Virus record (IMG/VR): IMGVR_UViG_3300030118_005675
Location: 1-29,185 of that record
Length of the DNA: 29,185 nt
Strand: one strand, 5' to 3'
Origin: a virus
Shown here: piece after piece, positions 10,431 to 29,173 of the stretch
Position numbering within the stretch: the stretch's first letter is position 1
Layout of the letters: each line of letters begins with the position of its first letter
Position numbers and translations under genes: made by a program
Notes under the pieces: generated by a model
Seen by the model: the letters and a program-made list of their open reading frames with translations, nothing else
The model's database searches: none
Told to the model about the DNA's origin: nothing

Positions 10431-13400
10431 TTAGATGACCTTAGGCAAAGCACCTGTTTGTCTAAGAGTATAAGATCCACCTGATCTCTGAATTGTTGGG
10501 AAGGTTGACAACCCTGAATCTACAGTTAATCCTGTTACACCAATTGAAATAGGTGTGGAACTTCTATTTAGTGATGATATTTTACCAAATGAGAAGGTGC
10601 CAAGTTTATCCCCACTCACGTCTAATGAATTATCAATAGCACTCATAACCGCATGGCACATAATTGAACCTGCAATCCCAACATTACTAATTTCTTGAAC
10701 TTGATATATGTTATCTACAAAAGTAGATCCGATTGCAACATCTGACAAACCAGTTTCATTTCTTGATGTGATACCATGACCAACAGTTGTATCATCAATG
10801 AATATGTAATCACCTACATTTAAACCAGTGTAATTTGCAATTGCATCAGTTCTTTCTAATTGGAATCTTAAAGCGTTGGTGCCAGATATCTGTTTTTGAG
10901 CAATGCCAGTAATAATTCCTGAGAAACCAGTGACAGATGTTACAGATGTAATTCCCTCTGTTATAGCAACAGGTGGACGAACAAGAACTTGTGGAGCGAT
11001 TGTATATCCTAAACCAGGATTTGTAATTGCAAATCCATCTATTACACCATTTGTAATAGTAACAGTTGCTGTTGCAGTTGTAGCAACACCGATAGATCCA
11101 TCTGATTGAACAAATGTTAAACCTGCCCCAATACCATTACCTGTTGGTCTTCCAATTGATATTGTAGGTGCAGATGTGTATCCACTTCCTCCACCAACGA
11201 TTGTCAAACCTGAAACTGTTCCTGCTGCAGATACAGTTGCATCAATAGTTGTGATACCCACCAATGGTAAAGGTGCACCAGAAACTATCTTTGCATCAAA
11301 TCCATCACTGGATGCTGATCCTTCAATATCAAAGAATTTTGCATTATCAACATATATTTGAGAAGTTGTAGTTGTCAAGTCTGATATAATTTTTCCAGTT
11401 GGATAAATCTGAGGTTCAATTGAATCTCTTACTTTTGAAATATTTCTACCTTCAATTCTTGTATCACGCTTTTGTTTAATGAGATGTATACCTCTAAAAT
11501 TGTTTGAATCTATACCTTGCTCAGAATATAGATTTGTCTCAAACTTATCCTTAAGAGATAAATCAAAAACAGTTCTCCTATCTTGTTGCTTTGAAGTGCT
11601 AATTCCATCTGATTTTGTTAACTGAACAAGATCTCCAACTTCAATAAGTGGTTTTATATTCGTGTTTACTATGGTATCAACACCATCTTGACCTTTATAT
11701 AAGTATATTGATACATTATCCTCTATTGATGGTGCTGTGGTAAATGAAATTGATGTTCCCCCTTCAAACTGATAATTTATATCAGGTTGTTGTAGCACAC
11801 CATTTACAAAAATAACTAATAAATTTTTAAGAATAATGTCTGAACCCTCTTTTGCTTCAATACTTATTAAATCACCATTATAGAATAGTGGGAAGTTTAC
11901 ACGAGAACCATCTTGTAAATCTTTAATATCATCAATATAATCTAATTCACCAAATTGCCAGAATGAGAAATTATCTGTATATGTTTCAATAACTTCTATA
12001 ACAAAATCTGATATAGGTTTATCTAAACTTACATCAGTAACTAAACCAACTGGTGTAAATTTATCACCCTTCTTAAAACCATAACCGGTTCTACTCAACT
12101 CAAAATTCTTAACAGAGAATAATGTTGATCCAATGCCAGTAACACCAGAATTATTCACGTCAACGGTAATAAGAGCACCTGTTCCAGTGTCAGTGGTTGC
12201 ACCAGTTCCAACTCTTGATACACCCACGATAGGCATATCATCATATGATGGACTTGGTGTGAATAGTTTTGGTTCTTTATATCCAGTTCCAGCATGAGGT
12301 ATATTAAATGATAAAGCACCACCAACACCAATCTCAGCAGTGATTGTCGCACCAGAACCTACGTTCTTACCAACAAATGCTGTGATTGAATCTGTATCGA
12401 ATGATATAATTGAAGTTAGTATACCTGATACTGGATCAGTTTTTCTTGGATATGGATGATTTGTTGAGTAATTATCTTTTGAACAAGAGAATACAATTGA
12501 ATTTGTATTAATACCAATTAAATTACCCGTTGTCAATCCGTGACCTACGATAGTTAATACAAGATTTCCAGTCACCGGATTATAAGTTGCATCTGTAGGT
12601 GTCTTTGCGTTTTGTCCCCAAAGATCAACATAAACTGAATTCTCTTCTGCACTCACGAAGATGTGGTTATAACCAGGATCAAATACTGTAGCAGCAACTG
12701 AAACACGATTATATCCTGATCCAAATGTTAAGTCACCATACCATACTTTGACTGTTCCTCCACCGATATATGTGTGAGGTATTGTGCTTGTTCCAACTTG
12801 TGTCTTAAATGTATTTGTAGATGATACTGAAACGACAGGGAATTGATTTCCAATCGTCCCATCGGGAAACAGACCAGAACCGATTCCAACACCACCAGAT
12901 GTACAGGTAAATGCCAATCCTGCCAAAATGACCTGATCATCAGATCCATTAACAATTAAATTATGTTTATCTACAGTTGTTATTTGTAAAATACCTGTGT
13001 TATTATTATAAGATGCAGTGGAAATACTGTTTGTAGGTCCAGAATATGCCACACCCACGACTGAGGTAACCATACCAACACTTGCACCTGTTCCAACTAA
13101 TAGTTTGACTTTAGCAGGAACTAAGGGAGCATATCCAAGTCCACCAGTTGATCCAAGAGATACAATTACTCCTCCTCTTGGTAATTCATTTTGATTGATA
13201 TCAGTATCACTCTTAATAAGTGCACCATCAGTAATTGTTGTTATACCTGAAAACTCAAGTGTAGTTGTGCTACCATTATCAATAATCTTATAATTTTTAT
13301 TTGGATTATTATCAGTGGATGGTGTTTGGAAAACATTGTTTATAAACAATAAACCATTTCTTGCTAACTGCCCTGCACCTGTTGTATTAATACCTCCAGA

Positions 13401-16400
13401 TTTTAAAGTAAATACTGAAGCAATACCTGTAAATTGATTTGATATATCATCATATACTTTATTTGTACTGTAATCGTTTCTTAAATATACTCTACCATTA
13501 AAATCAGACTTGGCTGGAGGTAATCCAGATACATTCAATTCCTTTCTTATGTCACCTCTTGGTGGATCCGTAAAGAATATTTGATTATCTTTAATATTAT
13601 ATGATCCCTTGAATAAAATCGCAGATGTTGTATCAGTATGAGTTGCTTTTTGAGTTCCAACAGAAGCTCTATCAACTTGTACAAGAGGAATTAAACCAGT
13701 ACCAGTAATAGGTCCGATATTAGTGGTTCCAAAACCAACGTTATTAACTGTAACAATCTCATCATCTAGTTTAATTAGATCAGTAATATTCAAATCTGCA
13801 ATAGAGTTTAATCTGAATATAGTTTGTCCCACTCCTATGGATCCACCATTTCCTGATAGTGAGAATGTTAAGTTTGATCTTGCAATGGGATTTTGAACAA
13901 TTCCGTCTAAACTTATTACTGCTTTTGTAAGACTCTTACTCATCTCAAATTGATGAGCATTACCTTCACCTGCTTCTGTGAAAGTAACTGCTGATCCAGT
14001 TCTACTGGTTGATATTTGGAAAGTATTTTTATCATTTGCATTAACAACAGCAAAGACTGTTGAAGGTAGTACGCCAGTAGTTCCAGCACCAGGTTGATAT
14101 ATCATCGCTTCGGATCCAACACCAATAAATGTTGATTTTGGTGTGTATATCAACTCCTCTTGATTTCTAAAGTTATGATTCGGAATACTAAATGTTCCTG
14201 TTGTAAAACTTACAATTCCATTATCTGATGGATCGAATGATTGTGCAAAAATTGGGAAACCATTATTTTTAAGTTTGAAAGATAATTTATTAATTCTAGC
14301 ACCATTTATTGCATTATATTGTTTATATTTAAATGATTGTGTAATTTTACCAAAATTTATATCGTTTGGTTCATTTTTCTCACCTTTTAATGTTAGTGGG
14401 TCAAACTGACGATAGAATGCTTCATTTAAACTCTTTATTGTAGTTGTGTCAGTAGTATTATCGGGGTGAAATTCTAAAACAATATTATCACCCACAAATC
14501 TTGATACAAATGTGCCAAGACCTATGGCATTATCATAAGCGGAGGATCCTGTGTTGTTACCTACCGATAAGAATTGTGATTGTACTATATTTGATGTATT
14601 CTCGTTTTGTATTAACAATACTTGATGTAATGCTTCAGAAGTTCCTGTTCCAACATGAACTGTTGATTTAAACGCTGTGAACGATTCTTTATCAAATGTT
14701 GCTACAGTATTAACACCCACTCCAGTATCAAAATTTGAAGAAACAATGGCACTTCTTTCAGATCCACCTGCTTGACCAGATGCTAGAAATCTATAAGATG
14801 AGGTTCCGAGCGATGTATTTCCAAAACCAATAATTTTTGATTTAACTTTTAAGTTATTATTTGATACGTTATTAACATTAATTGATAGAACACCGCCTGA
14901 TATATCTGGACTTATAGTAGCAGTTGACAAACCAAAACTTAAATTTCCAAAACTTGTATCAAATATTTGTTGGGATTTGAAGGTGTCACTCCCATTATGG
15001 GTAACCAATGTCTCAACATATTCAACTTGGTTTGTGATCTGATCAATTATTTGAGACTGAACAAATAAACTATCAACATTAACAGTCGATATACCAGATA
15101 TGATACTCTCAGTTGTTCCCGCGATATCTGATGTTGTACCCACTCCAACCACAGAACTACTGATATCAATTAAACCAAATGAACTTGTTCCGATACCTGT
15201 CAAAGATGTATTAAATTTATTTTCTATAATTTTAAGATCATAATCATTTTTAAATATATTTTCTTCAGTGGGTCTAAATTTTAAAAATGTTTTTTGAGTT
15301 CCGTCCGGTAGTTGATTAGTTGACAATTCAAAATTAACAAAGTTTTCATCCACTAAATGAATTGAAGTTTCTTCATTACCAGATACTGGTCTTATAGCAT
15401 AATCTTTTAGTAAATTTAATTTATTTAACAATGATGCATTTTGATTGCTATTCAAAATAATTAACTCAGATAATGAAATTTGATTTCCATCTAAATTATT
15501 TGCCATCACTAATATACTATTAAAACTATCAACTGGATTAACTTGTGTAACATCTATCTCAGTTATAGGTTCTCCATCAATATTTGAAAAATTAGAACTT
15601 ATATCATCAATCAATATGACATCATTTGTGCTAGATTCTGTAAAATCAGTTAATCTTGTATTTTTTAATTGTATGAATTTTGATTTAGTGGTATCTACAT
15701 CACTTGCATCTTCACTTAAATTAGTTTGCAAACCAACAAATGAATCTCTTGCCTGATCAAAATTAAATAATGTATCCACTCTTAGATTCTCTATGATATC
15801 ACGACTGATCAGAGTCTGATCAGAAACTGCAATTGATACATTAGTTGTTGATGTAATTCCAGTGTCTGCAAAATTCTTAGTTCCAACTGTATGAACTAAA
15901 TTGTTGACTGGACTCTCCAATTTATTCCATTCTATAGGACTTTGTATTGAATAAGATAAATTTTGATAATAATCATTATTTGGAATTACTTGATTATCCT
16001 CATTTAATTTACCAGTATTAGTTTCCCATCCAAAATCTCTCACTAAAGAGTAACTAACAATAAAATCACCTTGATTATTTGTTATTTTTTCAATTCTACC
16101 ACTATTTTTAGATTTTTTACCAACAATAATGTCATTATTTTGCAATTCAAATAAACCTATAACTTTGATAAAACTATCTTGGAAATTTTCAACTACTGTC
16201 AAATCTCTTTCAATATTGTTCACTAATAATTTTTCACCTACTATAAATATTGATCTTTCAAAATTTAATTTAAATTTTGGATATACGTTTGAGTTTGTTA
16301 TTATAGCAAAAGATGATTGTATAGTTTGAGCAAGTCCTACATTTGTAGTAAATTCTGATGCATCTACAGTTATTTTATCAAAAATACCTGAAGTATCATA

Positions 16401-19400
16401 ATTGGTTATAGGTAAAAAATTAAATCCATAATCTGATGAGTTAAATCCTGATCCAGCAGTTCCAACTCTTTTAATACCTTCAATAAATGCAGCATCACCA
16501 ATTTTAAATGGGTTTACAGGATATCCACCCGCAGGTTTAGTAATAGACAACACAAAAGTTGATACACCTGCATTTGCATCTATTTTTTGTATGCTAATAC
16601 CATTGCTATTATTTGTTGTAACTAATTTTACCTCTCCCCTAGACAATCCAGTGGGTGATGAAACTACATCCACCTTGTTAATTGAAGTTCCATTCAAGTT
16701 AGCAGTTAAAAGTCCATCAACCGACTGTCCAAGGTTAGTGTCAATTACAAGTAAATTTGGACTTTTTATAAATCCACTACCACCATCTTGAATCTCTACA
16801 CTTGAGATAGCACTTGAACCTGTTAATTCAATAAATTTAGGTATCAATGCTTCCGGTTGAAGAGTTTTATCGGATGAGTATTCAAATCCTTCGTTAATTA
16901 TTCTTGTTTTTTTAATATTACCAATGGTTGTTGATCTTGGAATTATAATTGCATCCTGTTCAGTTGTGGTTCCTACCCCCACAAATGAAGGTAATTTTTT
17001 ATAGTTAAAACCACCAGCGATCAAATTGACATTACTTATTGTTCCAGTAGCTAATCCAGAATTTGTATTGTATTCTAATAAATCACATTCATTAGATAGA
17101 TAAAATGTTTTTTCAGGAATTTTATCTACATCCACTGTGAAAGAACTAACCCCAACATTTGAAATAGAGTATTTTCCATTGAAAACACTATCCACATATT
17201 GTATTTCAGAATAATCTTGAACTTCGGTATCTGCTGTTAATCTTACTCCGTCTTTTTCAAGATTATAATATAATTTTTCTGGTAAACTAACACCATAACC
17301 AATAGTAAATCTAGAATTAGTCATACCTACAGTGACTATTCCAACCGGAGTATTAAATCCAGTGGTTGATGATGTTGAAACAAATTCATTTTCAAATTTA
17401 TTATCATGATAAATTTTAAATTTATGATTTAATAGTGAAATGTCTGATAAATTAAATACTAAATCATTATTTTTAATTGGTTTTAGGGGTGGATTTACTT
17501 TTGATAATCTATGAACTGTGGTTATTCCTGCGGCCGCAGTTATATCAATTTCTATTGGTGGATTACTTATTGCATTTTGATATGTTTGGCATAATTTAAA
17601 GGTATTATTATCAATTACACTTACGTAGTAGGAACTATTTCCTAATCCTACAGCATAATGAGAAGAGTAATAAATTATCTTATCACCAGTTACTAAATTA
17701 TGATTTTTAATTGTAATTTCATTAGATCCAGTTGCATCATTAAACAACTTAATACCTGTTGTAAGACCCTCTATTGGGTCTATTAATATTTTATTAGTGG
17801 TTGTATCTCTTTTTACGTTTACCTCTGTTAGAGTTCCAATACCTGCATTTATATTTGGTTTTACACTGAGAGTGATATTATCATCATCTTTTAAATTATG
17901 AAAACTTGATGCCAGAGAAACAGTTGTTTTTACATTTGATACGTTTACTTTTTCTTGTACAAAATTGCTTTCAAAGAAGTATAGATCACTATTAATATTT
18001 CCATCACCACCAACAGTTCCTCTGAAGAATACTTCTTCAAATTGATTTCCATTTTGATCTGTACCTATGCCGGTTTTTATACCAATAACATTAGTATTTT
18101 TTCTAACTGCAAATACTTCTGAGGGTAAAGCAAAAGTGGCACCTGTTGGTGAAGTAGATATTGAAATATTTGTTGAAGATGCAGTAGGTGTGCTGTAACT
18201 AATTTTTTGATTTGTTCTAAATGGATGATTTTCTAAATAAATTCCTTGTTGAGGTATTGCATTTGTTCTTGATTGATCTCCAAATCCATATGTAACAGAT
18301 GTTGTAACACCTGCAACTGTCCCAAAACCCACTGTTTTTGTTGGATTGAAGAAAAATTTATCATTTACCCTTGAATTGAAATCACTAGTTGATTTTTGTA
18401 TAGTGAAAGAATCTGGTATAATATAAAGTGGAGTTGATGCTGTATGAGCAATAGCAGGAAGAGATCTCTGAACTGTTAAAATTCTATCACCAGCATAGAT
18501 ATTGAGTATTTTTAATGTTTCACTTCCAATACCGATGCTATTACCCACAGACACATTTTCTGGTAATTTTGAAACATAAATTTCAGTTGTTGCTGTTCCA
18601 GCACTAATAGTAGATATTGCAACTGCTGTTAATGATGAAACACCGATTGTATGGGTACCATTAACTTCTGTTAATGATGATGTTAATCCAGATATTATTA
18701 CTCTATCTTTATTTACAAGATTATGATTATTTGATGGTGTAATTTTTAATGTTTTATTATCTAATTTCGTTATGACTGAATCATTATATCTAAGAACATC
18801 AGAAGTAATTGAATTAACACCGACACCTTTTATTTCAGATACTTTTGCTATTAAACCACCACCATCTGTATTTGTATTATCAAATTTTATTTCCTCACCA
18901 ACTCTGTGATTTGATCCACCATTAATTATTTGTAAACTTTGCACACTACCACTTTCAACAGTTTGTATTTCAGATAGTTGAGTTGTTATTTCATTTGTTT
19001 CAGTTAATGAATCTGTACCTGCGTTAAGTTCAGAAACTTTGTATGGAAATGTATTTCTTCTTAAATCAGAATTTATAAAATCAAATGATTGATTTAAAAT
19101 AAAATTATCTGACTCTACTTTAGATCTATACTTATTACCTATAAAATATGGGAATGATGAAATGCCTGTTACATCTACAGTGGCATGATACGCATAAACA
19201 CCATTAGGATAATCATCATTTATTTCAAATCTTCCATTATACTCATCTAAGTCTCCACCACCTGTATATTGATAATCCTCCACAAAGAATCCATCGGGGA
19301 AAGATGGTCGGTCGATAACATTACTTACATTTAATGTATAACTTGATCCTAATAATTTTGTTTCATTAGTTTTCTTTTCAGGATCACTAAAACCATATGG

Positions 19401-22400
19401 TCCATATATTGGATTACCATCATACGCCCAACCAATTATAGGAGACACATTAGATCCATCATCTTTAAATGACAAGATATCATATCCACCAACAACATTT
19501 TGTAAAATTTGTAAATTTTCCTCAAGTAAGTTAACTCTATTACCATATTTTTCATTATTATTAACACTCAATGATCTAACATTTGCTGTTAACACTGCGT
19601 TTTGACCAGCAGGAATTACTCTAACAGATGTAGAATCTGCAGAATAACCAATACCTGATCTGATTATAACAACATTATCAATTTTACCATTTAACTCTCC
19701 TGTGCTTGTTTTACCAAGAACTGCCTTTAATCTTGCACCATTACCTAAACCTGATGTATCAATAACTTCTAAAGTTGGAGTAGAAAAATATTCAGTTCCT
19801 GCTGCAGCAACTGATACTGTTCCTATACCTGTAGTTGATGGATCAACGAAAATTTTAACCTCTGCGTTCTTACCATTTTTAATTTTAATGTTTGGTTTTT
19901 TCTCAAAATTTAATATTTCAGATCCATATCCTGTTCCTTTGTTTATTAATAAAAGATCGTCAATTTCTCCCCTAACAACCGGAGTTATTTCAAGTTCTCC
20001 TCTAGTTGTAGCAGTGGTTTTTGCTCCACCAACCTGAATGTATTCAATACTTGCTTTGATGTCAGGATATTTAAATGTTTGTGTTCCTATGCCTGACGTT
20101 GTAAAACTTACAAATTTGTTTTGATTAAAATTATTTGATGATGTGCCTCCCACACCAGCGTTTGCTAATCCAAATTCATTATCACTTATTTTTAAAATTT
20201 TATATTGTAAATTAGTATCCAAACCTACAATATTAGATCCCTGATTAGAGTAAACTATATTATCACCATGTTCAAATCCATGATTTTCAAATGTAATTGA
20301 ATTTAAGAGTGTAGATATACCTACAGTTGAGATACTTAAAGTTCTATTAGAGTAATTACTTCCACTATTTAATATTTTTAAATCTAAAATTGTATCCTGA
20401 GGATTACCTACAATCAGTTTTTGTGTTCCACTTCTTTCACTGAGTCCGATTGGATTAATTCTTGATAAAGCATCATTCTCAGTAAAATGTAATTTAATGG
20501 TGGTAGAATTCTCTGATGAAATAAAATATGATTCATTTGATACTAATGTTAACGAATTTGTACCAATTCCTGTGCCATTCTGTGAATTGTAGATAACCCT
20601 TTCTGCTGGAGCTAAATTATGAGGACTTGCAAAGGTTATTGTATTATTCACGGCACTGATACCAATACCAGTTACAGTATTAATTCCAGATGCAACAAAT
20701 TGCAATTCTCTTGATCTTTTTCCAATTACAGGAGCAATCACGGCACCAGATCCATTTCCCCCAGTAATTCCTATTGATACAACTTTTGCAATACCAAGTT
20801 CTTGTGGATCTACGAAAGCATCGACTAAACTTCCTTTTATAACAGGTTGGATGACTGCATCAGAACCACTACCAGTTGAAACACCTATCTGTGGTGGATT
20901 AATTACATCATAACCAGTTCCTGATGATATTATATTAACTTGACTTAGAGGACCGAAAAATACCTTATCATTTGTTTTATAATTAAATATTTCAACACCA
21001 TTGATTAAAATTCCAGTTGTACCAGGTATAGTTTCACTAACTCCACCATTTTTTAAATTAGGAGTTAAAGGAAACTTCTTTAATAATTTGCGTGGTTTAA
21101 TTAAATTTGATCTCTGAGAGAACAAAGTAAATGAATGAGTATCTCCTTCTACTGGTTCTCCAAATGTTAATGAAGTTTCACTATCAATAAATGATCTTGA
21201 AGAATATAATTTAATTAATTGAGCACTATCATCAAATATTTCAATGTAATATAAACCTGTTTTTAACCCATCTAACTCAGTTCCTGAGGATTCGTAAAAT
21301 ATTGCATCTCCGGTTCTTAATATTTTTACAAGATCAGTTTCATTTACTTTAATTTGTGAATATAATTTAGTTGTCGCATCTTGATTTTCTACACTACTTA
21401 AAGTTAATTTATTTAATTTTGTATTAATATTTTCGCGAAATTTAATATTTGGTAAATTTGAATTGACAGAGGATGGTAATGAGTTAGAAGCAGCATATCC
21501 ATTTTCTTTATCAAAGTAGATATTACTTATGTCTGATGTAATATCACTATCAATTGGAACAAAATTACTCGCAGCTTTATTTAATTTTTTTCTTAACTTA
21601 TATTCCAATGCAGTGTTTATCCCTACTAAATTTCCTAAAGTAACACTTTTTGAACCTTTTGCAATATCTTCCAATACATATGGACTGCTACTCGTGGGTG
21701 TAGGATAGATTACTATACTTGGATCATCTATATTAACTAACTCTACAAAATCTCCTTTCTTAAGACTTGAGCGATCAACCTCAGTTTTTAAATTTACTGT
21801 TGATCCACTTATTTCATCTACAACATATGAAGCAGAGGTATTGTAAATCCAAGAATTTGCAAAAACTTCTTTTTTCGTTTTATTAGAAGGATTTTTTACA
21901 TTTTGACCTAAATTTTTAATCTTAATTATATCTCCTTCCGATACAACTACATTTTCTGATAATTGTCTAAAATCTGATAAAATACCTGTTATTCTAAATT
22001 CTACTTTTTTGTTTATATCACCATCTTCAAATCCAAAATAAATTTCATCAGAATAAAAATTAGAGGTGGGTAATATCTCGGAAGTAACACCTGTACAACC
22101 GAAAAATTGGTTTATTGATTTATCGGAGTAAGATATTGTATTAATACCTGATATAATTTTACCACTAGTACTAAATCCAATTGTTGAATCTACACTAATC
22201 GTAGAAGATCCCACTGATACCTTTTCAATATTTTTAGTATTTGGTGTAATCTTAAAATTTCCTTCAACTAACGAAGTTCCATCATATCCAATGAATAGTG
22301 AAAATTTAAAGTATCTTTTACCATCTCTAAAAAATGGTTCAACCTCAGATACAGATGCCTGAGTTTTTGGATCATTAAGTTTTTCAATTTTTTTAATTGT

Positions 22401-23183
22401 TTGACCAATTAATCCGAGTGGATTACCACTTAAAACTTCAACGATAACTACTTCTCTTCGTAAATATTCTGCAGATGATGGTTTTATTAATAATTCTTCT
22501 AAATTTATTATCTTTGGATCAACACCGTACAGTACTCTAAATAAAATTTCAATCGCATCATCAGTTCCTTTAGTTTCATAAAAGGACTTTATTTCTTTCA
22601 AAAAATTTCCAACATTTAATTTTTTATCAAAATTTAACTGTTCGAAACCAGGTGCAAATGTTGATTTAAATTTTTTAAAAAACTCCTTTAAAAATAGTGT
22701 GCTTAGATTTTGTATATTTGAACCTGCAGTATGGACACCGGTGTTTGAAGTAGTAAAGACCAACTCTTCTTGATTTAAATCTGCATGATAACTTGTTATA
22801 CCACTAAATCCGCGTGTTAATCCTGTAAAAGTATTTGTAGTTAATCCTGTATAAGTTATAATTTCGTCATCAATTTTTAATAAACCATATTTACTTGGAA
22901 ATCCTTTCGTGCTTGAAACTGTAACTACACCTACTTCTTGAGTTCCTATACCAACTGATAATGAAGTTGTATCAACCACAACCTCCGGAGTTAAATTATC
23001 AAGTTCTAAATATTGATCTAAATTTTCTGCGATATCAACAGCACCACCCTGATACTCCTGTGAAGTATAATATGTTTTTAAAAAATCGACAACCTTTGGT
23101 GACTCATCTAAAACAAAATTAGGAAGTTGGGATGAGACAATATCTTGAATTTTTACTCTTGCATCAATACCTGTTTGTATCAT
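10431..23183 (-). CDS. 7: Giant gp7-like baseplate wedge protein, 4250 aa
   Basis: Residues about 195-265 contain SFYETKGTDDAIEILFRVLYG, and 25-30 residues later LSGNPLGLIGQTI. These parallel DFYSTKGIEASYKFLFKVLY and LTEDLVGQTI of T4 gp7 (1032 aa), a central wedge protein that binds gp8, gp10 and gp53. Together with position between gp6 and gp8 this supports gp7. Beyond that core the protein is modular: an IITYTG...LTRG module (98-145); about 13 GxGY modules (near residues 753, 1079, 1126, 1174, 1419, 2053, 2094, 2129, 3343, 3483, 3628, 3993, 4051); about nine HNL modules (near 851, 965, 1483, 1648, 1757, 1824, 2998, 3403, 3543); a YHYH-type domain (about 1235-1350, GWAYDGNPIYGPYGF); and a segment near 3753-3835 with FVNGVLQQPDINYQF, a pattern common in tail fibre and gp10-like proteins. 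The frame is open throughout. The start is coupled to the end of gp6 with one intervening base. Most of the length has no T4 counterpart. Confidence 0.88.
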   Translation of the reverse strand: MIQTGIDARVKIQDIVSSQLPNFVLDESPKVVDFLKTYYTSQEYQGGAVDIAENLDQYLELDNLTPEVVVDTTSLSVGIGTQEVGVVTVSSTKGFPSKYGLLKIDDEIITYTGLTTNTFTGLTRGFSGITSYHADLNQEELVFTTSNTGVHTAGSNIQNLSTLFLKEFFKKFKSTFAPGFEQLNFDKKLNVGNFLKEIKSFYETKGTDDAIEILFRVLYGVDPKIINLEELLIKPSSAEYLRREVVIVEVLSGNPLGLIGQTIKKIEKLNDPKTQASVSEVEPFFRDGKRYFKFSLFIGYDGTSLVEGNFKITPNTKNIEKVSVGSSTISVDSTIGFSTSGKIISGINTISYSDKSINQFFGCTGVTSEILPTSNFYSDEIYFGFEDGDINKKVEFRITGILSDFRQLSENVVVSEGDIIKIKNLGQNVKNPSNKTKKEVFANSWIYNTSASYVVDEISGSTVNLKTEVDRSSLKKGDFVELVNIDDPSIVIYPTPTSSSPYVLEDIAKGSKSVTLGNLVGINTALEYKLRKKLNKAASNFVPIDSDITSDISNIYFDKENGYAASNSLPSSVNSNLPNIKFRENINTKLNKLTLSSVENQDATTKLYSQIKVNETDLVKILRTGDAIFYESSGTELDGLKTGLYYIEIFDDSAQLIKLYSSRSFIDSETSLTFGEPVEGDTHSFTLFSQRSNLIKPRKLLKKFPLTPNLKNGGVSETIPGTTGILINGVEIFNYKTNDKVFFGPLSQVNIISSGTGYDVINPPQIGVSTGSGSDAVIQPVIKGSLVDAFVDPQELGIAKVVSIGITGGNGSGAVIAPVIGKRSRELQFVASGINTVTGIGISAVNNTITFASPHNLAPAERVIYNSQNGTGIGTNSLTLVSNESYFISSENSTTIKLHFTENDALSRINPIGLSERSGTQKLIVGNPQDTILDLKILNSGSNYSNRTLSISTVGISTLLNSITFENHGFEHGDNIVYSNQGSNIVGLDTNLQYKILKISDNEFGLANAGVGGTSSNNFNQNKFVSFTTSGIGTQTFKYPDIKASIEYIQVGGAKTTATTRGELEITPVVRGEIDDLLLINKGTGYGSEILNFEKKPNIKIKNGKNAEVKIFVDPSTTGIGTVSVAAAGTEYFSTPTLEVIDTSGLGNGARLKAVLGKTSTGELNGKIDNVVIIRSGIGYSADSTSVRVIPAGQNAVLTANVRSLSVNNNEKYGNRVNLLEENLQILQNVVGGYDILSFKDDGSNVSPIIGWAYDGNPIYGPYGFSDPEKKTNETKLLGSSYTLNVSNVIDRPSFPDGFFVEDYQYTGGGDLDEYNGRFEINDDYPNGVYAYHATVDVTGISSFPYFIGNKYRSKVESDNFILNQSFDFINSDLRRNTFPYKVSELNAGTDSLTETNEITTQLSEIQTVESGSVQSLQIINGGSNHRVGEEIKFDNTNTDGGGLIAKVSEIKGVGVNSITSDVLRYNDSVITKLDNKTLKITPSNNHNLVNKDRVIISGLTSSLTEVNGTHTIGVSSLTAVAISTISAGTATTEIYVSKLPENVSVGNSIGIGSETLKILNIYAGDRILTVQRSLPAIAHTASTPLYIIPDSFTIQKSTSDFNSRVNDKFFFNPTKTVGFGTVAGVTTSVTYGFGDQSRTNAIPQQGIYLENHPFRTNQKISYSTPTASSTNISISTSPTGATFALPSEVFAVRKNTNVIGIKTGIGTDQNGNQFEEVFFRGTVGGDGNINSDLYFFESNFVQEKVNVSNVKTTVSLASSFHNLKDDDNITLSVKPNINAGIGTLTEVNVKRDTTTNKILIDPIEGLTTGIKLFNDATGSNEITIKNHNLVTGDKIIYYSSHYAVGLGNSSYYVSVIDNNTFKLCQTYQNAISNPPIEIDITAAAGITTVHRLSKVNPPLKPIKNNDLVFNLSDISLLNHKFKIYHDNKFENEFVSTSSTTGFNTPVGIVTVGMTNSRFTIGYGVSLPEKLYYNLEKDGVRLTADTEVQDYSEIQYVDSVFNGKYSISNVGVSSFTVDVDKIPEKTFYLSNECDLLEYNTNSGLATGTISNVNLIAGGFNYKKLPSFVGVGTTTEQDAIIIPRSTTIGNIKKTRIINEGFEYSSDKTLQPEALIPKFIELTGSSAISSVEIQDGGSGFIKSPNLLVIDTNLGQSVDGLLTANLNGTSINKVDVVSSPTGLSRGEVKLVTTNNSNGISIQKIDANAGVSTFVLSITKPAGGYPVNPFKIGDAAFIEGIKRVGTAGSGFNSSDYGFNFLPITNYDTSGIFDKITVDASEFTTNVGLAQTIQSSFAIITNSNVYPKFKLNFERSIFIVGEKLLVNNIERDLTVVENFQDSFIKVIGLFELQNNDIIVGKKSKNSGRIEKITNNQGDFIVSYSLVRDFGWETNTGKLNEDNQVIPNNDYYQNLSYSIQSPIEWNKLESPVNNLVHTVGTKNFADTGITSTTNVSIAVSDQTLISRDIIENLRVDTLFNFDQARDSFVGLQTNLSEDASDVDTTKSKFIQLKNTRLTDFTESSTNDVILIDDISSNFSNIDGEPITEIDVTQVNPVDSFNSILVMANNLDGNQISLSELIILNSNQNASLLNKLNLLKDYAIRPVSGNEETSIHLVDENFVNFELSTNQLPDGTQKTFLKFRPTEENIFKNDYDLKIIENKFNTSLTGIGTSSFGLIDISSSVVGVGTTSDIAGTTESIISGISTVNVDSLFVQSQIIDQITNQVEYVETLVTHNGSDTFKSQQIFDTSFGNLSFGLSTATISPDISGGVLSINVNNVSNNNLKVKSKIIGFGNTSLGTSSYRFLASGQAGGSERSAIVSSNFDTGVGVNTVATFDKESFTAFKSTVHVGTGTSEALHQVLLIQNENTSNIVQSQFLSVGNNTGSSAYDNAIGLGTFVSRFVGDNIVLEFHPDNTTDTTTIKSLNEAFYRQFDPLTLKGEKNEPNDINFGKITQSFKYKQYNAINGARINKLSFKLKNNGFPIFAQSFDPSDNGIVSFTTGTFSIPNHNFRNQEELIYTPKSTFIGVGSEAMIYQPGAGTTGVLPSTVFAVVNANDKNTFQISTSRTGSAVTFTEAGEGNAHQFEMSKSLTKAVISLDGIVQNPIARSNLTFSLSGNGGSIGVGQTIFRLNSIADLNITDLIKLDDEIVTVNNVGFGTTNIGPITGTGLIPLVQVDRASVGTQKATHTDTTSAILFKGSYNIKDNQIFFTDPPRGDIRKELNVSGLPPAKSDFNGRVYLRNDYSTNKVYDDISNQFTGIASVFTLKSGGINTTGAGQLARNGLLFINNVFQTPSTDNNPNKNYKIIDNGSTTTLEFSGITTITDGALIKSDTDINQNELPRGGVIVSLGSTGGLGYAPLVPAKVKLLVGTGASVGMVTSVVGVAYSGPTNSISTASYNNNTGILQITTVDKHNLIVNGSDDQVILAGLAFTCTSGGVGIGSGLFPDGTIGNQFPVVSVSSTNTFKTQVGTSTIPHTYIGGGTVKVWYGDLTFGSGYNRVSVAATVFDPGYNHIFVSAEENSVYVDLWGQNAKTPTDATYNPVTGNLVLTIVGHGLTTGNLIGINTNSIVFSCSKDNYSTNHPYPRKTDPVSGILTSIISFDTDSITAFVGKNVGSGATITAEIGVGGALSFNIPHAGTGYKEPKLFTPSPSYDDMPIVGVSRVGTGATTDTGTGALITVDVNNSGVTGIGSTLFSVKNFELSRTGYGFKKGDKFTPVGLVTDVSLDKPISDFVIEVIETYTDNFSFWQFGELDYIDDIKDLQDGSRVNFPLFYNGDLISIEAKEGSDIILKNLLVIFVNGVLQQPDINYQFEGGTSISFTTAPSIEDNVSIYLYKGQDGVDTIVNTNIKPLIEVGDLVQLTKSDGISTSKQQDRRTVFDLSLKDKFETNLYSEQGIDSNNFRGIHLIKQKRDTRIEGRNISKVRDSIEPQIYPTGKIISDLTTTTSQIYVDNAKFFDIEGSASSDGFDAKIVSGAPLPLVGITTIDATVSAAGTVSGLTIVGGGSGYTSAPTISIGRPTGNGIGAGLTFVQSDGSIGVATTATATVTITNGVIDGFAITNPGLGYTIAPQVLVRPPVAITEGITSVTSVTGFSGIITGIAQKQISGTNALRFQLERTDAIANYTGLNVGDYIFIDDTTVGHGITSRNETGLSDVAIGSTFVDNIYQVQEISNVGIAGSIMCHAVMSAIDNSLDVSGDKLGTFSFGKISSLNRSSTPISIGVTGLTVDSGLSTFPTIQRSGGSYTLRQTGALPKVI
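19120..19480 (-). other. YHYH-type domain within the gp7-like protein
   Basis: This part of the 4250-aa frame encodes IIGWAYDGNPIYGPYGF, then LDEYNGRFEINDDYPNG and YAYHATVDVTG, and ends with a FPYFIGNKYR strand. The order GWAYDG.PIYGPYG, LDE.NGR, Y.YH, FPYF.G is that of the YHYH domain found in secreted and cell-surface proteins of aquatic bacteria. It occupies about residues 1235-1350. The function of that domain is not established. Its presence here suggests a surface-exposed accessory module. Confidence 0.72.
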
Positions 23184-25532: not shown

Positions 25533-25550
25533 TTTTTACAGTTTTTTATT

Positions 25551-25558
25551 TATTTATG
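25551..25558 (-). promoter_or_regulatory. Late promoter CATAAATA upstream of gp25
   Basis: The minus strand reads TCATAAATAAATAAAA, containing CATAAATA with an overlapping AATAAATA (25547..25554). It includes the TAA stop of the 40-aa ORF. The predicted start near 25545 leaves about 13 bases before the gp25 ATG. Confidence 0.65.
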
Positions 25559-25685: not shown

Positions 25686-25693
25686 TATTTATG
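25686..25693 (-). promoter_or_regulatory. Late promoter CATAAATA overlapping the sulfotransferase stop codon
   Basis: The minus strand reads CCATAAATACAC. The TAA inside the octamer is the stop codon of the sulfotransferase gene. The predicted start near 25680 lies just ahead of the 40-aa ORF, and transcripts would continue into gp25. Confidence 0.6.
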
Positions 25694-26450
25694 GTAAAAG
25701 TGTTGTGTAAAAATCTATTGACTCTTTTAATTTAGTATTTGCCAGTTCAATATAATAATTATGTAGTTCGAAATTAAAATTTGCCACGTTTTGTGGTTTA
25801 GAAAGTGCTTTTATTTCTGATACTTCAAGAAATTTTTTCAATTCATCTTGTTTTTGTTGATTTATGAAAAAATGTTCGGTGGTCAAACATATAACGTTCT
25901 CAAAAACTCTTTCAAATTTGTCTTTAACATCTTTATATAGAGTTTGCATCTTAGGATTATTCACATAATCCAAGAATAAATCCGTTTTCTCTTTCAGTTT
26001 TATACCAAAATAACCAGCATCATGATGAAGCATGCCGATGTAAGAGATTAATCTTTGAATTGGTTCTCTATACATCAAAATTATTTTAATATCAAAATGA
26101 TTTCGTAAATCTTCATTTATTTTGCGTAGATAGTCTTCTGGTAAAGGGAAGTAAGATTGACTAAAATCAGATGGTTTTGCATATGAATCAAGATATGACA
26201 CGTAATTATCCAAATTATACGGTTGTAATAATCCTATTTTCTGATTTTTATGCATAACATACATTTTATGTGGTTCAATTAACTCCACTGGGACTATTGC
26301 ATCATAATTATCAAAATTATTATGATGCATAATAGAAAGATAATGAAATTCTTTATATAATCCTTCAACTATTTTGCTATCATACAACATTTTCCACAGT
26401 GAAGTAGTACCTGACCTTGGAATACCAGGACATATGATCAATTTTTTCAA
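25689..26450 (-). CDS. Sulfotransferase-family protein, 253 aa, TTG start
   Basis: Residues 9-22 (GIPRSGTTSLWKML) form the 5'-phosphosulfate-binding P-loop of PAPS-dependent sulfotransferases. R128 and S136 in ILMYREPIQRLISYIG (124-139) fit the 3'-phosphate-binding motif. Length fits a single soluble catalytic domain, with no signal peptide or membrane segment. The expected reaction is transfer of sulfate from PAPS to a hydroxyl or amine. The acceptor is unknown, and a glycan is plausible given the glycosyltransferase nearby. The start must be TTG at 26450: no in-frame ATG lies before residue 21, within the P-loop segment, and an in-frame stop lies six codons upstream. No Shine-Dalgarno sequence is visible. 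A 14-base palindrome (26451-26464) sits directly upstream. The gene lies between a terminator and gp25, like a moron with its own late-type promoter. Confidence 0.82.
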   Translation of the reverse strand: MKKLIICPGIPRSGTTSLWKMLYDSKIVEGLYKEFHYLSIMHHNNFDNYDAIVPVELIEPHKMYVMHKNQKIGLLQPYNLDNYVSYLDSYAKPSDFSQSYFPLPEDYLRKINEDLRNHFDIKIILMYREPIQRLISYIGMLHHDAGYFGIKLKEKTDLFLDYVNNPKMQTLYKDVKDKFERVFENVICLTTEHFFINQQKQDELKKFLEVSEIKALSKPQNVANFNFELHNYYIELANTKLKESIDFYTTLLP

Positions 26451-26489: not shown

Positions 26490-26527
26490 AAAAAAAATCG
26501 CCAACTAGTGAAAAATTGACGATTTTT
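26490..26527 (-). terminator. Intrinsic terminator after the 240-aa gene
   Basis: Minus strand: AAAAATCGTCAA, an 11-base loop, TTGGCGATTTTT, then more T residues. Twelve pairs form, one of them G-T, and the run of T follows the stem directly, as in a Rho-independent terminator. It starts seven bases after the stop codon of the 240-aa gene and closes the glycosyltransferase operon. Confidence 0.85.
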
Positions 26528-26533
26528 ATAATT

Positions 26534-27256
26534 TTAACCTAATTCTGGTTCAATATTTAGATCAATCGTACCTGTAATTGCAGTATTTCCGACTCCAACA
26601 TCAATATTTGCTCTTTCTTTTGCTGTTTTCCAGAAATAATTCTCTTCTGAACCCAATCCATCGCGATCATGACCATTTTCAACCTGATAATACACTGTTG
26701 ATACCTTAAAGTCAGGTGTCTTAGGTGTCTCAGGAGTGATACTGTTGTCATATATCCTCATTCTGTTGTTTGGATAGAGGCAAAACTGTCCATTATCAAG
26801 TTCAAGTAGGTTATGAGACTTGTGTTCAGCAGGTTGTTCACTTGTGGAGTAGTCAATTGCGTCTACACTCTCATGATAATTGTCTAAAGTGCATATGTAA
26901 GTGCCTGTTTGATTACCAAAGTCACGAGTATAGACCTCATAATGCATACTTCCGATGAATTGTTTCTGCACTGCAACTACCCCATAGTCCATACAATTCC
27001 AAAACTGAAGATTATGTAGTGTCATATCCGGATCTGGTATTTCTGGTGACGAGAGAAATGCCGAAATTGGCAGTTTATCAAACATTGCCGCATATTCCGG
27101 TAAATATGTTTCAAAATAAAAGGCACGACCAGGTATACTTTTTGCAGAAACCCAGACTCCTTTAACAAATTCACCGTGACCACTTTGATGGTCGGTTAAA
27201 TATTCTTTTCTTACCCACACTTCATAAGAAGGTAAATTTGTAATTAAAGTCGACAT
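26534..27256 (-). CDS. Conserved hypothetical protein of marine T4-like phages, 240 aa
   Basis: No catalytic motif was recognised. The N-terminal part (YEVWVRKEYLTDHQSGHGEF, about residues 11-30, then a GVWVSAKSIPGRAFYFETYL strand) is aromatic-rich. The middle contains LHNLQFWNCMDYGVVAVQK. A later segment reads LDNGQFCLYPNNRMRIYD, followed by a Pro-rich linker. The C-terminus has a small acidic tail. From memory, proteins of this type recur in marine T4-like phages without a known role. There is no signal peptide or membrane helix. It is the last gene of a five-gene coupled operon, starts as TAATG on the stop of the zinc-ribbon gene, and is followed by a strong terminator. The expression pattern is therefore probably shared with the glycosyltransferase. 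Confidence 0.8.
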   Translation of the reverse strand: MSTLITNLPSYEVWVRKEYLTDHQSGHGEFVKGVWVSAKSIPGRAFYFETYLPEYAAMFDKLPISAFLSSPEIPDPDMTLHNLQFWNCMDYGVVAVQKQFIGSMHYEVYTRDFGNQTGTYICTLDNYHESVDAIDYSTSEQPAEHKSHNLLELDNGQFCLYPNNRMRIYDNSITPETPKTPDFKVSTVYYQVENGHDRDGLGSEENYFWKTAKERANIDVGVGNTAITGTIDLNIEPELG

Positions 27257-27408
27257 TAGTTTTGATTTGGATAATAGACTTGTACAAAAGATTCACATTT
27301 AGGGCATGAGAGATTTGTGACAATCGCGTACTCTTCCTCAACACCATAATCTTCACCGTTAAAATCGGCACCCCAAATTAACTCTGTATTGCAGTGCCAA
27401 CAATTCAT
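27256..27408 (-). CDS. Zinc-ribbon protein, 50 aa
   Basis: The peptide begins MNCWHCNTELIWGADF and has a second knuckle SCPKCESFVQVYY. The two CxxC pairs, C3/C6 and C35/C38, are about 28 residues apart and should bind one zinc ion in a zinc-ribbon fold. Such tiny proteins often bind nucleic acid or a host protein, but here the partner is unknown. The start overlaps the stop of the upstream 47-aa gene (ATGA) and the stop overlaps the next start (TAATG). An AGGACAGGG purine run just upstream can serve as the ribosome site. Confidence 0.8.
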   Translation of the reverse strand: MNCWHCNTELIWGADFNGEDYGVEEEYAIVTNLSCPKCESFVQVYYPNQN

Positions 27409-27548
27409 TTTCCCTGTCCTCGGTATCTTTTACGAGCCGAGTTACGCGACGTTGCTGAATATCTTGTATGTTTTCCCTTTCCCTGTGATGTTTTTTTCGG
27501 TCTGGTGTTCACTCCACCTGCTGTAAAACCGAGCGATTTGGTCGCCAT
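27405..27548 (-). CDS. Very basic small protein, 47 aa (hypothetical)
   Basis: The peptide starts MATKSLGFTAGGVNTRPKKT and ends in a Lys/Arg-rich half (GKGKHTRYSATSRNSARKRY, then RGQGK). About a third of the residues are Lys, Arg or His, with almost no acid, so it should bind nucleic acid or another polyanion. A strong ribosome site (AAAGGAG) lies seven bases before the ATG. I recall near-identical short basic proteins in marine T4-like phages, unassigned. Coupling to the zinc-ribbon gene by a four-base overlap suggests the two act together. It could be a virion-packaged DNA-binding peptide or an RNA-binding regulator; neither is shown. Confidence 0.72.
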   Translation of the reverse strand: MATKSLGFTAGGVNTRPKKTSQGKGKHTRYSATSRNSARKRYRGQGK

Positions 27549-27550
27549 AA

Positions 27551-27709
27551 TTAATCTCCTTTAATTTCAGTACGTATATCAGCAGGATTTGGTTTACCTG
27601 TCTGATAAAATTCAATTGCTAAATCTTCCATCATATCAAAGAACTCAAATTCAGATAGATCTGAAAACTTTAACTGCTCTTTGATATAAATGTCATAACG
27701 ATCTGCCAT
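27551..27709 (-). CDS. Small acidic protein, 52 aa (hypothetical)
   Basis: The peptide reads MADRYDIYIKEQLKFSDLSE, then FEFFDMMEDLAIEFYQTGKP and a NPADIRTEIKGD tail. It is acidic and probably all-helical. Its start codon shares one base with the glycosyltransferase stop (TAATG), and its stop lies two bases before the ATG of the basic 47-aa protein. Opposite charge to that neighbour is notable but does not prove an interaction. No family was recognised. Confidence 0.7.
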   Translation of the reverse strand: MADRYDIYIKEQLKFSDLSEFEFFDMMEDLAIEFYQTGKPNPADIRTEIKGD

Positions 27710-28464
27710 TAGATAACTCTCATCTTCTCATGTCCAACACGAACTCTTGGATCACACCAGATCTCAAATCCTGCATCCTTTGCATCTAAACAGAATGATA
27801 CATCTTCTCCGCACATATCCTGCACTTCACCAGACTCAAAGACTTGCATTTTTGGTGCAAACCAAGGATATGGTAGTCCTTCATTTTCAAAAACACCGTG
27901 CTTAATTAATAACCAACCGAAACCTGTATAGTCAACTGTGAAAGGTTTTGTACGCTTGGATATACTTTCGAGTGTTTCGTGATTCATTACACCACCATTG
28001 CTACGAAAATCATCCTCTTCTAACCAATGTGCTACAGATGTGGTTCTACCATCTTCGGTGCAATACCAACCTGCTGCAATTTCTTTATCCATTAATAATA
28101 ATTGCCAGAACTTCTCACTGTTAAAAACAATATCACTATCAATCCATAACTGATAATCATATTTTAATTTTCCATCCCATGGAATCTGATTTGGTCCTCG
28201 AAGAACATTTGCTCCGAGACACTTACATCTTGCAAAATTAACCATTGATGAATAATCTTGAGATATCTGAATCGACCCGCCGCATTGTACTATATCAAAA
28301 CAAAGTTGAACAAATGCTTTTAAAAATGTGAAAGATACTCCCCGACCTGGCAAACAAAAGACAACGCTCTTGCCTTTTACTAATTCTCTTGCCTTATCAT
28401 AGTCCCATTCTGGTTTTTTCTGTGTGGAAGGAGTCTTTGCTTTTACTGTAAATCCTTTTGCCAT
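27709..28464 (-). CDS. GT-A type glycosyltransferase, 251 aa
   Basis: After a short Lys-rich N-terminus, residues 32-50 (KSVVFCLPGRGVSFTFLKAF) match the start of a GT-A nucleotide-sugar fold. YQLWIDSDIVF, with the D109-S110-D111 metal-binding DxD, is the diagnostic motif. The C-terminal CGEDVSFCLDAKDAGFEIWC block, followed by a VGH, matches the acceptor and catalytic 'ED' region and final histidine of the GT2-like proteins common in cyanophages. The enzyme would transfer a sugar from a nucleotide-sugar donor. The acceptor (phage DNA, virion protein or host surface glycan) is unknown. No membrane segment is present. It is the first gene of a coupled operon, preceded by a palindrome carrying a TATAAT, and no Shine-Dalgarno sequence is visible. 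Confidence 0.85.
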   Translation of the reverse strand: MAKGFTVKAKTPSTQKKPEWDYDKARELVKGKSVVFCLPGRGVSFTFLKAFVQLCFDIVQCGGSIQISQDYSSMVNFARCKCLGANVLRGPNQIPWDGKLKYDYQLWIDSDIVFNSEKFWQLLLMDKEIAAGWYCTEDGRTTSVAHWLEEDDFRSNGGVMNHETLESISKRTKPFTVDYTGFGWLLIKHGVFENEGLPYPWFAPKMQVFESGEVQDMCGEDVSFCLDAKDAGFEIWCDPRVRVGHEKMRVI

Positions 28465-28492
28465 AATGTGTTGTAATTACATTCATATCATA

Positions 28493-28507
28493 CACTATTA
28501 TATAGTG
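28493..28507 (-). promoter_or_regulatory. Palindrome with embedded -10 box before the glycosyltransferase operon
   Basis: CACTAT and ATAGTG form 6-base arms around TAT. On the minus strand the site reads CACTATATAATAGTG, containing a perfect TATAAT hexamer 29 bases ahead of the ATG. No TTGACA lies at the proper 16-18 base spacing; a TTGACA overlaps the upstream stop codon only seven bases away. This could be a promoter overlapped by an operator. Evidence is moderate to weak. Confidence 0.4.
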
Positions 28508-28511
28508 CTTG

Positions 28512-28688
28512 TCAATTATCCTCTATTTCTGCAAGATAGACTCCATCAACATCTATATTCCATTTTAATTGTAAGTCTTCATACCAATCAAATTCATTTA
28601 TAATTTGCTCCGGAACAGTAATATGGTACCGATCAGTTACTGGATCGATCTCTATGGTCGAAAAAATATTGTCGAGATTTTTTTTCAT
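28512..28688 (-). CDS. AbrB/MazE-like small protein, 58 aa
   Basis: The central part (YHITVPEQIINEFDWYEDLQ, residues 21-40), followed by LKWNIDVDGVYLAEIED, follows the AbrB/SpoVT swapped-hairpin pattern: a 'xITVPxxI' strand and turn, a short helix ending in a Trp, a 'D-L-x' turn and a final strand pair around a DGV turn. Proteins of this fold are dimeric DNA-binding transition regulators or antitoxins. No toxin gene is visible beside it, so a stand-alone regulator is more likely than an antitoxin. It precedes the glycosyltransferase operon by a short gap that contains a palindrome. A weak AAGG lies about 12 bases upstream of the ATG. The fold call is by pattern only. Confidence 0.6.
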   Translation of the reverse strand: MKKNLDNIFSTIEIDPVTDRYHITVPEQIINEFDWYEDLQLKWNIDVDGVYLAEIEDN

Positions 28689-28855: not shown

Positions 28856-29173
28856 TCACGAACGACTGATATTAAAGTTATAATGACTGAATACCCATCG
28901 GTTGACTAATTTATATGTGCCATGCTCACCTGTCATGACATATCCCTCACCATCTACATATTCATTACCTAAGAAGCAATCAACCTTGAAATTATCTCTC
29001 ATGAGTTTCATGTACTCTGTTTTAATGTTCTCAACCAAGCACCACAACCGAACCAACTGATAGTTAGCAAACTCCTCCGCAACCACTTCATCACCATCGC
29101 GGATATATGCATTAAGGTCGATCTTAAGTTGCTTTGCTTCTTTCTCTGTGGCAAAGTCAACCAGTGTTGCCAT
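28856..29173 (-). CDS. Hypothetical protein, 105 aa
   Basis: The protein begins MATLVDFATEKEAKQLKIDL, continues with a hydrophobic and aromatic middle (YQLVRLWCLVENIKTEYMKL) and a Gly/Tyr-rich segment (GNEYVDGEGYVMTGEHGTYK). It is soluble and has no signal peptide or recognised motif. Two Cys residues are too far apart for a simple metal site. Upstream sequence is cut by the window edge, so its promoter and neighbour are not seen. It is separated from the next gene by the unusual GC-rich non-coding stretch. No function can be assigned. Confidence 0.72.
   Translation of the reverse strand: MATLVDFATEKEAKQLKIDLNAYIRDGDEVVAEEFANYQLVRLWCLVENIKTEYMKLMRDNFKVDCFLGNEYVDGEGYVMTGEHGTYKLVNRWVFSHYNFNISRS

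Follow-up and report, generated by a model that had tools for sequence, protein, structure and literature searches.

A conserved gene cassette upstream of the baseplate genes of marine T4-like cyanophages is best read as an early transcription unit

Five adjacent genes of a T4-like marine cyanophage were analysed in a 29,185-nt stretch of DNA (hereafter the window), which is part of the 31,777-base virus record IMGVR_UViG_3300030118_005675. They encode a glycosyltransferase (GT), an acidic protein of 52 amino acids (aa), a strongly basic 47-aa protein, a zinc-ribbon-like 50-aa protein and a 240-aa protein. The five genes are real, and they appear to form a conserved early operon of a known kind that carries optional cargo. 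We read the cassette as an early transcription unit of the phage, the products of which would be intracellular and would not belong to the virion, and give this reading a probability of about 0.6. Because a sigma-70-type promoter was found at the GT and a late-type motif at the baseplate wedge gene gp25, the cassette is best seen as an early unit abutting a late baseplate operon.

Relatives were collected by scanning viral contigs twice, once with the 240-aa protein as query and once with the GT; the best 80 of about 600 were used in each case. Distinct 100-nt stretches upstream of the genes were scored against a 12-position promoter consensus, with base-shuffled stretches as controls; the loci upstream of the GT included the window's own and those of three isolates. 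Among 150 distinct stretches upstream of the GT, 97% contained a site matching at least 10 of 12 positions (3% after shuffling) and 83% a site matching at least 11 of 12 (0% after shuffling). Such sites preceded the 52-aa, 47-aa, zinc-ribbon and 240-aa genes in 1-5% of stretches, about the shuffled level (0-4%). The site in the window is the best-scoring one, and its -35 box runs into the stop codon of the 58-aa gene that precedes it; for this reason the 58-aa gene is placed outside the unit. That gene (phrog_661; window 28512-28688, minus strand) is often found 5' of the GT, and a sigma-70-type site was present upstream of it in 13% of stretches (2% shuffled).

A different motif was found at the baseplate genes. 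ATAAATA was present in 96% of 140 distinct 100-nt stretches preceding gp25, against 8% of shuffled ones and 1% of the stretches preceding the GT. Sigma-70 sites have been treated as early promoters and TATAAAT as late T4-type promoters in the methods of PMC3037559. In literature on early promoters and transcriptomes we found no timing for the cassette, and the available part of PMC10976474 makes no mention of it. Of 45 intervals running from the 47-aa gene to gp25, 26 contained a terminator-like hairpin (6% when shuffled).

The same arrangement was seen in isolates. The GT and the 47-aa gene precede gp25 in P-SSM2, P-TIM68, S-SM2, S-SKS1, S-SCSM1, Sf-CH8 and S-B05, and in all of these except S-SKS1 a promoter matching 11-12 of 12 positions lies 22-29 nt before the GT. 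Seven other isolates carry the 47-aa gene before gp25 with no GT there; such a site was found within 600 nt of the 47-aa gene in two of them and only farther upstream in two. Exact ATAAATA was present in the 150 nt before gp25 in 10 of 15 isolates.

The cassette had been described in an earlier note made from the window alone. All five open reading frames (ORFs) were present on the minus strand with the sizes claimed, and the junctions were as it had given them: from the GT to the 240-aa gene, a TAATG overlap of 1 base, a gap of 2 bases, an ATGA overlap of 4 bases and a second TAATG overlap of 1 base. The single closing terminator was confirmed as well, the hairpin being more stable than its shuffled versions (mean -3.8 kcal/mol; z -4.8), none of which equalled it in 200 shuffles. 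A PHROG search found a family for each of the five proteins; the match of the 50-aa protein to phrog_2816 had E 2e-5 and covered 17 residues. According to PHROG matches, the genes 3' of the cassette encode baseplate wedge proteins and a tail-fibre assembly protein, and the names gp25, gp6 and gp7 were assigned from the identical order in S-SM2. The features are listed in Table 1.

Table 1. Features of the cassette and its surroundings in the window.
Feature	Position	Strand	Remarks
GT-A-fold glycosyltransferase (probable), 251 aa	27709..28464	(-)	phrog_1574; T4-GC 102 in named phages
Acidic 52-aa protein	27551..27709	(-)	net charge -7; phrog_3252
Strongly basic 47-aa protein	27405..27548	(-)	net charge +13; phrog_516
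Zinc-ribbon-like 50-aa protein	27256..27408	(-)	net charge -7; two CxxC; phrog_2816
240-aa acidic protein	26534..27256	(-)	phrog_3704; T4-GC 171
Sigma-70-type promoter	28487..28515	(-)	TTGACA-17 nt-TATGAT; 11 of 12; 22 nt before GT start
Intrinsic terminator closing the cassette	26493..26527	(-)	-13.4 kcal/mol
Two overlapping ATAAATA late-type motifs	25547..25557	(-)	upstream of gp25; start of a separate late unit

The earlier note had also read the strict coupling of the genes as a sign of a functional unit, but such coupling is not as unusual as this suggests. By hand count, 5 of the window's remaining 11 pairs of adjacent genes have a spacing of -4 to +3 nt, as have 5 of 16 pairs in a stretch of P-SSM2. 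Tight junctions are therefore common, and four in a row are a mild excess, not a signature. Since the genome is tightly packed, finding small charged proteins coupled to an enzyme is not very informative on its own.

All five genes are under purifying selection. For pairs with at least 70% protein identity, drawn from up to 60 sampled relatives and the window in each family, the median ratio of nonsynonymous to synonymous substitution (dN/dS) was 0.061 for the GT, 0.215 for the 52-aa gene (49 pairs), 0.163 for the 47-aa gene, 0.079 for the 50-aa gene and 0.092 for the 240-aa gene. The three small frames, the conservation of which had been left for checking, are thus kept in relatives.

The gene order in relatives separates a core from optional genes. 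Of 123 deduplicated loci spanning GT to gp25, 116 carried the 47-aa gene, 104 the 52-aa gene, 85 the 58-aa gene that lies upstream, 74 the 240-aa gene and 17 the zinc ribbon; half of these loci were fetched by the 240-aa protein, which inflates its share. In the GT-fetched contigs that reach gp25 (72 of 80), the counts were 72/72 for the 52-aa gene, which follows the GT, 71/72 for the 47-aa gene and 65/72 for the 58-aa gene, against 23/72 for the 240-aa gene and 3/72 for the zinc ribbon. The commonest order, 58 aa > GT > 52 aa > 47 aa > gp25 > gp6, was found in 45 loci, and the same order with the 240-aa gene before gp25 in 27. The core in close relatives is GT > 52 aa > 47 aa upstream of gp25-gp6, and the zinc-ribbon and 240-aa genes are optional cargo. 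Hence the functional unit proposed earlier stands in part: the order of the first three genes is kept, the sole conserved promoter is at the front and a terminator closes the window's copy, but there is no fixed set of five genes.

Further details of the loci were counted before deduplication. The GT/52-aa junction was -1 in 34 of 135 loci and -23 in 55, and the junction between the 47-aa gene and the zinc ribbon was -4 in all 10 measurable cases out of 20 loci. The 47-aa gene precedes gp25 and is separated from it, if at all, by optional genes: among the loci that hold both genes, 187 of 187 had no scored family in that interval other than the zinc ribbon and the 240-aa gene, and unscored inserts were also present. 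A general pairing of zinc ribbon and 240-aa gene was considered and rejected, as co-occurrence is occasional: the zinc ribbon was found in 21 of 145 loci of the close group of 240-aa genes, in 29 of 80 loci of the P-RSM4 type (5 directly coupled) and in 0 of 80 of the pelagiphage type, and conversely the 240-aa gene was found in 1 of 80 zinc-ribbon-fetched loci.

We also searched 22 named phage records, which were chosen partly for carrying cassette genes, so that the counts are not prevalences. Matches to the 47-aa family and to the 240-aa family were each found in 16 records, those to the GT in 10, to the 52-aa family in 4 and to the zinc ribbon in 2. Weak matches among isolates were those of the 47-aa family in a Flavobacterium phage (E 1.4e-4) and of the 52-aa family in P-RSM4 (E 4e-4, partial). 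At E 0.001 the 47-aa family had no match in T4, KVP40, HTVC008M, HTVC023P, PA-SR01 or S-SSM7. S-SCSM1, which is outside the set of ten GT-carrying records, has the 52-aa family beside its GT according to a profile built for this analysis, and in S-SSM7 and S-TIM61 different small genes occupy that position. The 240-aa gene is found shortly before gp25 in S-SM2, S-SKS1, Sf-CH8, S-B05 and S-SCSM1.

The location beside gp25-gp6 could also mean that the cassette is a baseplate-associated module, the genes of which help to modify or assemble the tail. The GT might then glycosylate, for example, the giant baseplate and fibre proteins, and the products would be virion or assembly proteins. The sulfotransferase-like gene between the cassette and gp25 would suit such a module, as would the RefSeq name 'virion structural protein' for the S-SCSM1 homologue of the 240-aa protein (gp012; L483:3995-4708). 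That name is not borne out by the original record, in which the protein is hypothetical and unmarked. For S-SCSM1, 45 virion proteins have been reported (PMC9602691), and the original record marks gp25 and gp6 as 'virion protein' and leaves the GT, 52-aa, 47-aa and 240-aa genes unmarked; the marking presumably follows mass spectrometry. In addition, the promoter class of the cassette differs from that of gp25, a terminator lies between them, and the 240-aa gene is far from gp25 in P-SSM2, P-TIM68, P-SSM4, P-RSM4 and P-HM1. We therefore consider a baseplate module unlikely.

The interval before gp25 accepts many other genes. In 53 of 122 loci the interval from the GT to gp25 held additional ORFs of 75 codons or more, 78 in all; 65 of these followed the 47-aa or 240-aa gene. 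Ten proteins, namely nine inserts or cluster representatives and one S-B05 neighbour, were scanned against Pfam. S-adenosylmethionine decarboxylase (speD) accounted for a cluster of 20 loci, 2-oxoglutarate-Fe(II) (2OG-Fe(II)) oxygenases for clusters of 6 and 2, DUF6445 for 2 and SET for 2, and five of the ten had no match. The decarboxylase gene lies between the cassette and gp25 in L029:6687-7034 and its relatives, and S-SCSM1 has a halogenase gene in the insert region. In the window the same interval holds the sulfotransferase-like gene (25689-26450, minus strand, TTG start; Pfam 19.2 bits, below the cut-off of 27), which is also found in L006. In S-B05 and L215 the gene immediately preceding the 240-aa gene encodes a SET domain (E 3.2e-13 and 5.3e-11). 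A profile built from these two also detected L138 and L052, the latter cut by the contig end, and no other of the loci searched; the coordinates are L163:3121-3492, L215:2557-2922, L138:3754-4122 and L052:2-205. In S-B05, L215 and L138 the SET gene follows the 47-aa gene, in the slot held by the zinc ribbon in the window, and among 23 isolates SET was found in one (S-B05).

Such variety would agree with loose cargo of an insertion hot spot, that is, with early neighbours that have no joint function and are retained where insertions are tolerated. A hot spot of small genes between gp46 and gp25 was published in 2010 (PMC3037559), the inserts vary (speD, 2OG-Fe(II) oxygenases, SET, halogenase, sulfotransferase-like), other phages have the 240-aa and zinc-ribbon genes at other places, and the 52-aa family adjoins the GT in few isolates. 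The near-constant presence of the 52-aa and 47-aa genes in the GT-fetched contigs and the conservation of the front promoter only are evidence to the contrary, and we find the loose-cargo explanation doubtful.

Several observations weigh against an early unit with non-virion products. The relatives were chosen by similarity and hence are not independent. In S-SKS1 the 3 kb upstream of the 47-aa gene contain no 11-of-12 promoter, and three isolates with no GT at this place (S-PM2, S-SM1 and P-RSM4) likewise have no such site within 3 kb. In S-SCSM1 a second 11-of-12 site lies 67 nt before the 47-aa gene, where an internal transcription start is possible, and in Syn9 the 47-aa gene begins 2 nt after another gene. 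Exact ATAAATA was absent within 150 nt before gp25 in P-RSM4, Syn9, S-SSM7, Sf-CH8 and S-SCSM1. A terminator-like hairpin was found between the 240-aa gene and gp25 in only 7 of 82 intervals (shuffled 2%), so readthrough into gp25 may be common. Of the 10 GT-carrying records, only three (P-SSM2, S-SKS1 and Sf-CH8) have phrog_3252, the 52-aa family, next to the GT. As for the virion, the baseplate wedge gene SSCSM1_17 is likewise unmarked in the S-SCSM1 record, and a Lys/Arg-rich protein of 47 aa is easily missed by trypsin-based mass spectrometry. Two of these points, the loose association of the 52-aa gene with the GT among isolates and the possible internal promoter of S-SCSM1, slightly lowered our confidence in the early unit and slightly raised that in loose cargo and in a baseplate module.

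If the cassette is such an early unit, host RNA polymerase would start at the conserved sigma-70-type promoter before the GT, and the coupled genes would be read as one mRNA ending at the terminator before gp25-gp6-gp7. The late gp25-gp6-gp7 baseplate operon would use its own late-type promoter. The cassette products would act inside the infected cell and not as parts of the virion. The GT would act as a GT-A enzyme with a metal cofactor and modify a molecule of either host or phage, perhaps with the 52-aa protein as its partner in close relatives. The basic 47-aa protein may bind an acidic target, such as nucleic acid, the ribosome or the polymerase, during takeover, and the zinc ribbon and the 240-aa barrel protein, which is neither PurM nor ferredoxin, would be exchangeable extra genes.

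The GT is likely a GT-A enzyme, judging from its predicted structure and its motifs. The AlphaFold2 model had a mean confidence (pLDDT) of 77.1, with residues 71-98 mostly below 50, and showed a Rossmann-like GT-A fold. The best Foldseek match was yeast Mnn9 (E 3.1e-8), followed by LH3, COLGALT1 and GalNAc transferases. Superposition on LH3 gave a VIA Z of 16.3 over 187 aligned residues (root-mean-square deviation 3.3), with mimivirus R699 and STIV A197 tied. Among 155 distinct relatives, the metal-binding DxD motif was present as DSD in 148 and the downstream acidic catalytic motif as GED in all 155, and residues D109 and D111 were invariant in 74 aligned sequences. There was no match to Pfam or NCBIfam at E up to 1, and nothing below E 0.35 among PDB sequences.

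Many GenBank records name the 240-aa family (phrog_3704) PurM, and RefSeq and PHROGs call it ferredoxin. In a hand count over 60 of the 114 matching records, 22 were named PurM or AIR synthetase, 17 ferredoxin, 4 transcriptional regulator and 1 virion structural protein, 13 were hypothetical only and 3 had no annotation. Taken at face value, these names would make the cassette an auxiliary metabolic gene (AMG) cluster. No AIRS (PF00586) or AIRS_C (PF02769) domain was detected in the window protein or in seven homologues (0/8), and the control PSSM2_176 matched both. In P-SSM2 two adjacent genes, PSSM2_175 (240-aa family) and PSSM2_176, are both named purM; of the two, PSSM2_176 alone carries AIRS domains, and the comparison between them gave E 0.66, that is, no match. 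AIRS_C was found in 2 of the 22 records (P-SSM2 and S-SKS1), with a positive control in 14 of 14 cellular genomes, and 14 of the 16 records that carry the 240-aa family had no match. The ferredoxin cysteine motifs CX4CX2C and CxxCxxC were present in 0 of 267 distinct homologues. We therefore reject both identities and regard the metabolic explanation as practically untenable. The PurM label was likely copied from the neighbouring gene.

The predicted structure of the 240-aa protein (pLDDT 76.8) consists of two small beta barrels, the first spanning roughly residues 4-72 and the second 98-171. Its best PDB matches were tandem Tudor proteins, and these were weak (Foldseek E 4.4e-3; VIA Z 6.8), too weak to claim membership. 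PurM folds were absent among the top 50 structural matches listed, which by itself excludes nothing. The profile found nothing below E 0.35 among PDB sequences, and no NCBIfam hit was above its cut-off. A beta-trefoil assignment for the P-HM1 homologue (Pfam 15.2 bits against a cut-off of 26) was taken as chance and dismissed.

The label is also present in publications. purM is reported in 45% of 82 pelagiphage genomes in PMC9599517; HTVC023P, an isolate of that lineage, has a member of the 240-aa family named PurM and no AIRS_C match, and counts of viral purine metabolism that are based on the label therefore need checking. PMC3037559 states that the purM of P-HM1 is absent from P-HM2. The P-HM1 'purM' belongs to the 240-aa family, P-HM2 lacks that family, and neither phage has AIRS_C. 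ORF051 of CL131 is said to match cyanophage purM genes (PMC6293099), and one Aphanizomenon record was among our matches to the family. No published correction of the phage purM label was found in the open-licence literature.

The 47-aa protein has a C-terminal RGQG motif, and [RK]GQG was found in 161 of 161 distinct relatives and a PKK-like motif in 156. By tblastn (E up to 0.01) the protein was detected in 443 phage records, 173 of which cover 80% of the query; the organism names begin with Synechococcus, Prochlorococcus, Cyanophage or Marine. The profile found nothing below E 0.35 among PDB sequences, and two unrelated Pfam models each matched one of 25 members, which gives no Pfam identity. 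In Flavobacterium phage immuto (L164:1986-2123 and 3498-4142) a 45-aa basic protein ending in KLYRGQGK lies about 1.4 kb before a homologue of the 240-aa protein, an arrangement that may be a distant echo of the cassette. An upstream protein of that phage annotated 'TiaS' was rejected as a zinc ribbon, since it has no cysteine. The 50-aa zinc-ribbon protein has two CxxC knuckles in 74 of 74 distinct relatives, and it matched Pfam PF22747 with 20.3 bits, under the cut-off of 27.6.

The structural matches of the GT and the genes found beside the 47-aa and 240-aa genes allow one further reading. LH3, COLGALT1 and mimivirus R699 are hydroxylysine glycosyltransferases. The cassette might accordingly be imagined as a phage system for protein-lysine modification, in which the GT, the 2OG-Fe(II) oxygenases and the SET methyltransferase (four loci, directly before the 240-aa gene) would be modifiers, the 47-aa protein a common substrate like a histone tail and the two-barrel 240-aa protein a reader. 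As SET was found in four loci only and the Tudor match is weak, this stays highly improbable.

Two other ORFs of the window were noted. The 105-aa ORF at 28856-29173 (minus strand) is a short form of a larger family, DUF6267, of which it matches the C-terminal end alone (columns 308-376 of 376). At the position of the baseplate wedge initiator gp7 there is a 4250-aa ORF (10431-23183, minus strand); gp7 of T4 is far smaller.

With this reading, a group of anonymous small genes becomes a testable early operon with one promoter in many marine cyanophages. In view of its presence in 443 phage records, the 47-aa protein is a promising candidate for a widespread factor in host takeover. The family named purM in phage records is something else, and the mislabel, which has entered publications and AMG counts, has put PurM into phage surveys where the presence of the enzyme is not supported.

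Comparison with known systems placed each component as follows. The GT model shares its fold (residues 13-251, Z 13.9-16.3) with LH3 residues 293-521, COLGALT1, R699, STIV A197 and Mnn9, and has the DxD and GED motifs in common with known GT-A glycosyltransferases, from which it differs in an identity of 12-21%. The 240-aa family resembles PurM (AIR synthase) of cyanophages and pelagiphages in database name only, and differs in having no AIRS domains, a shorter length (195-267 aa) and a beta-barrel model. Its model, with two small barrels, weakly resembles tandem Tudor or SH3-like barrel proteins; a Z of at most 6.8 lies within the range reached by models without a clear match, and there is no Pfam match. 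The cassette as a whole resembles the hot spot of PMC3037559 in its position just before gp25 and in its small hypothetical genes. The transcription unit, its promoter and its optional cargo do not appear in the available part of that account, and the sigma-70-type promoter before the GT and the late motif before gp25 across relatives are what the present analysis adds to it.

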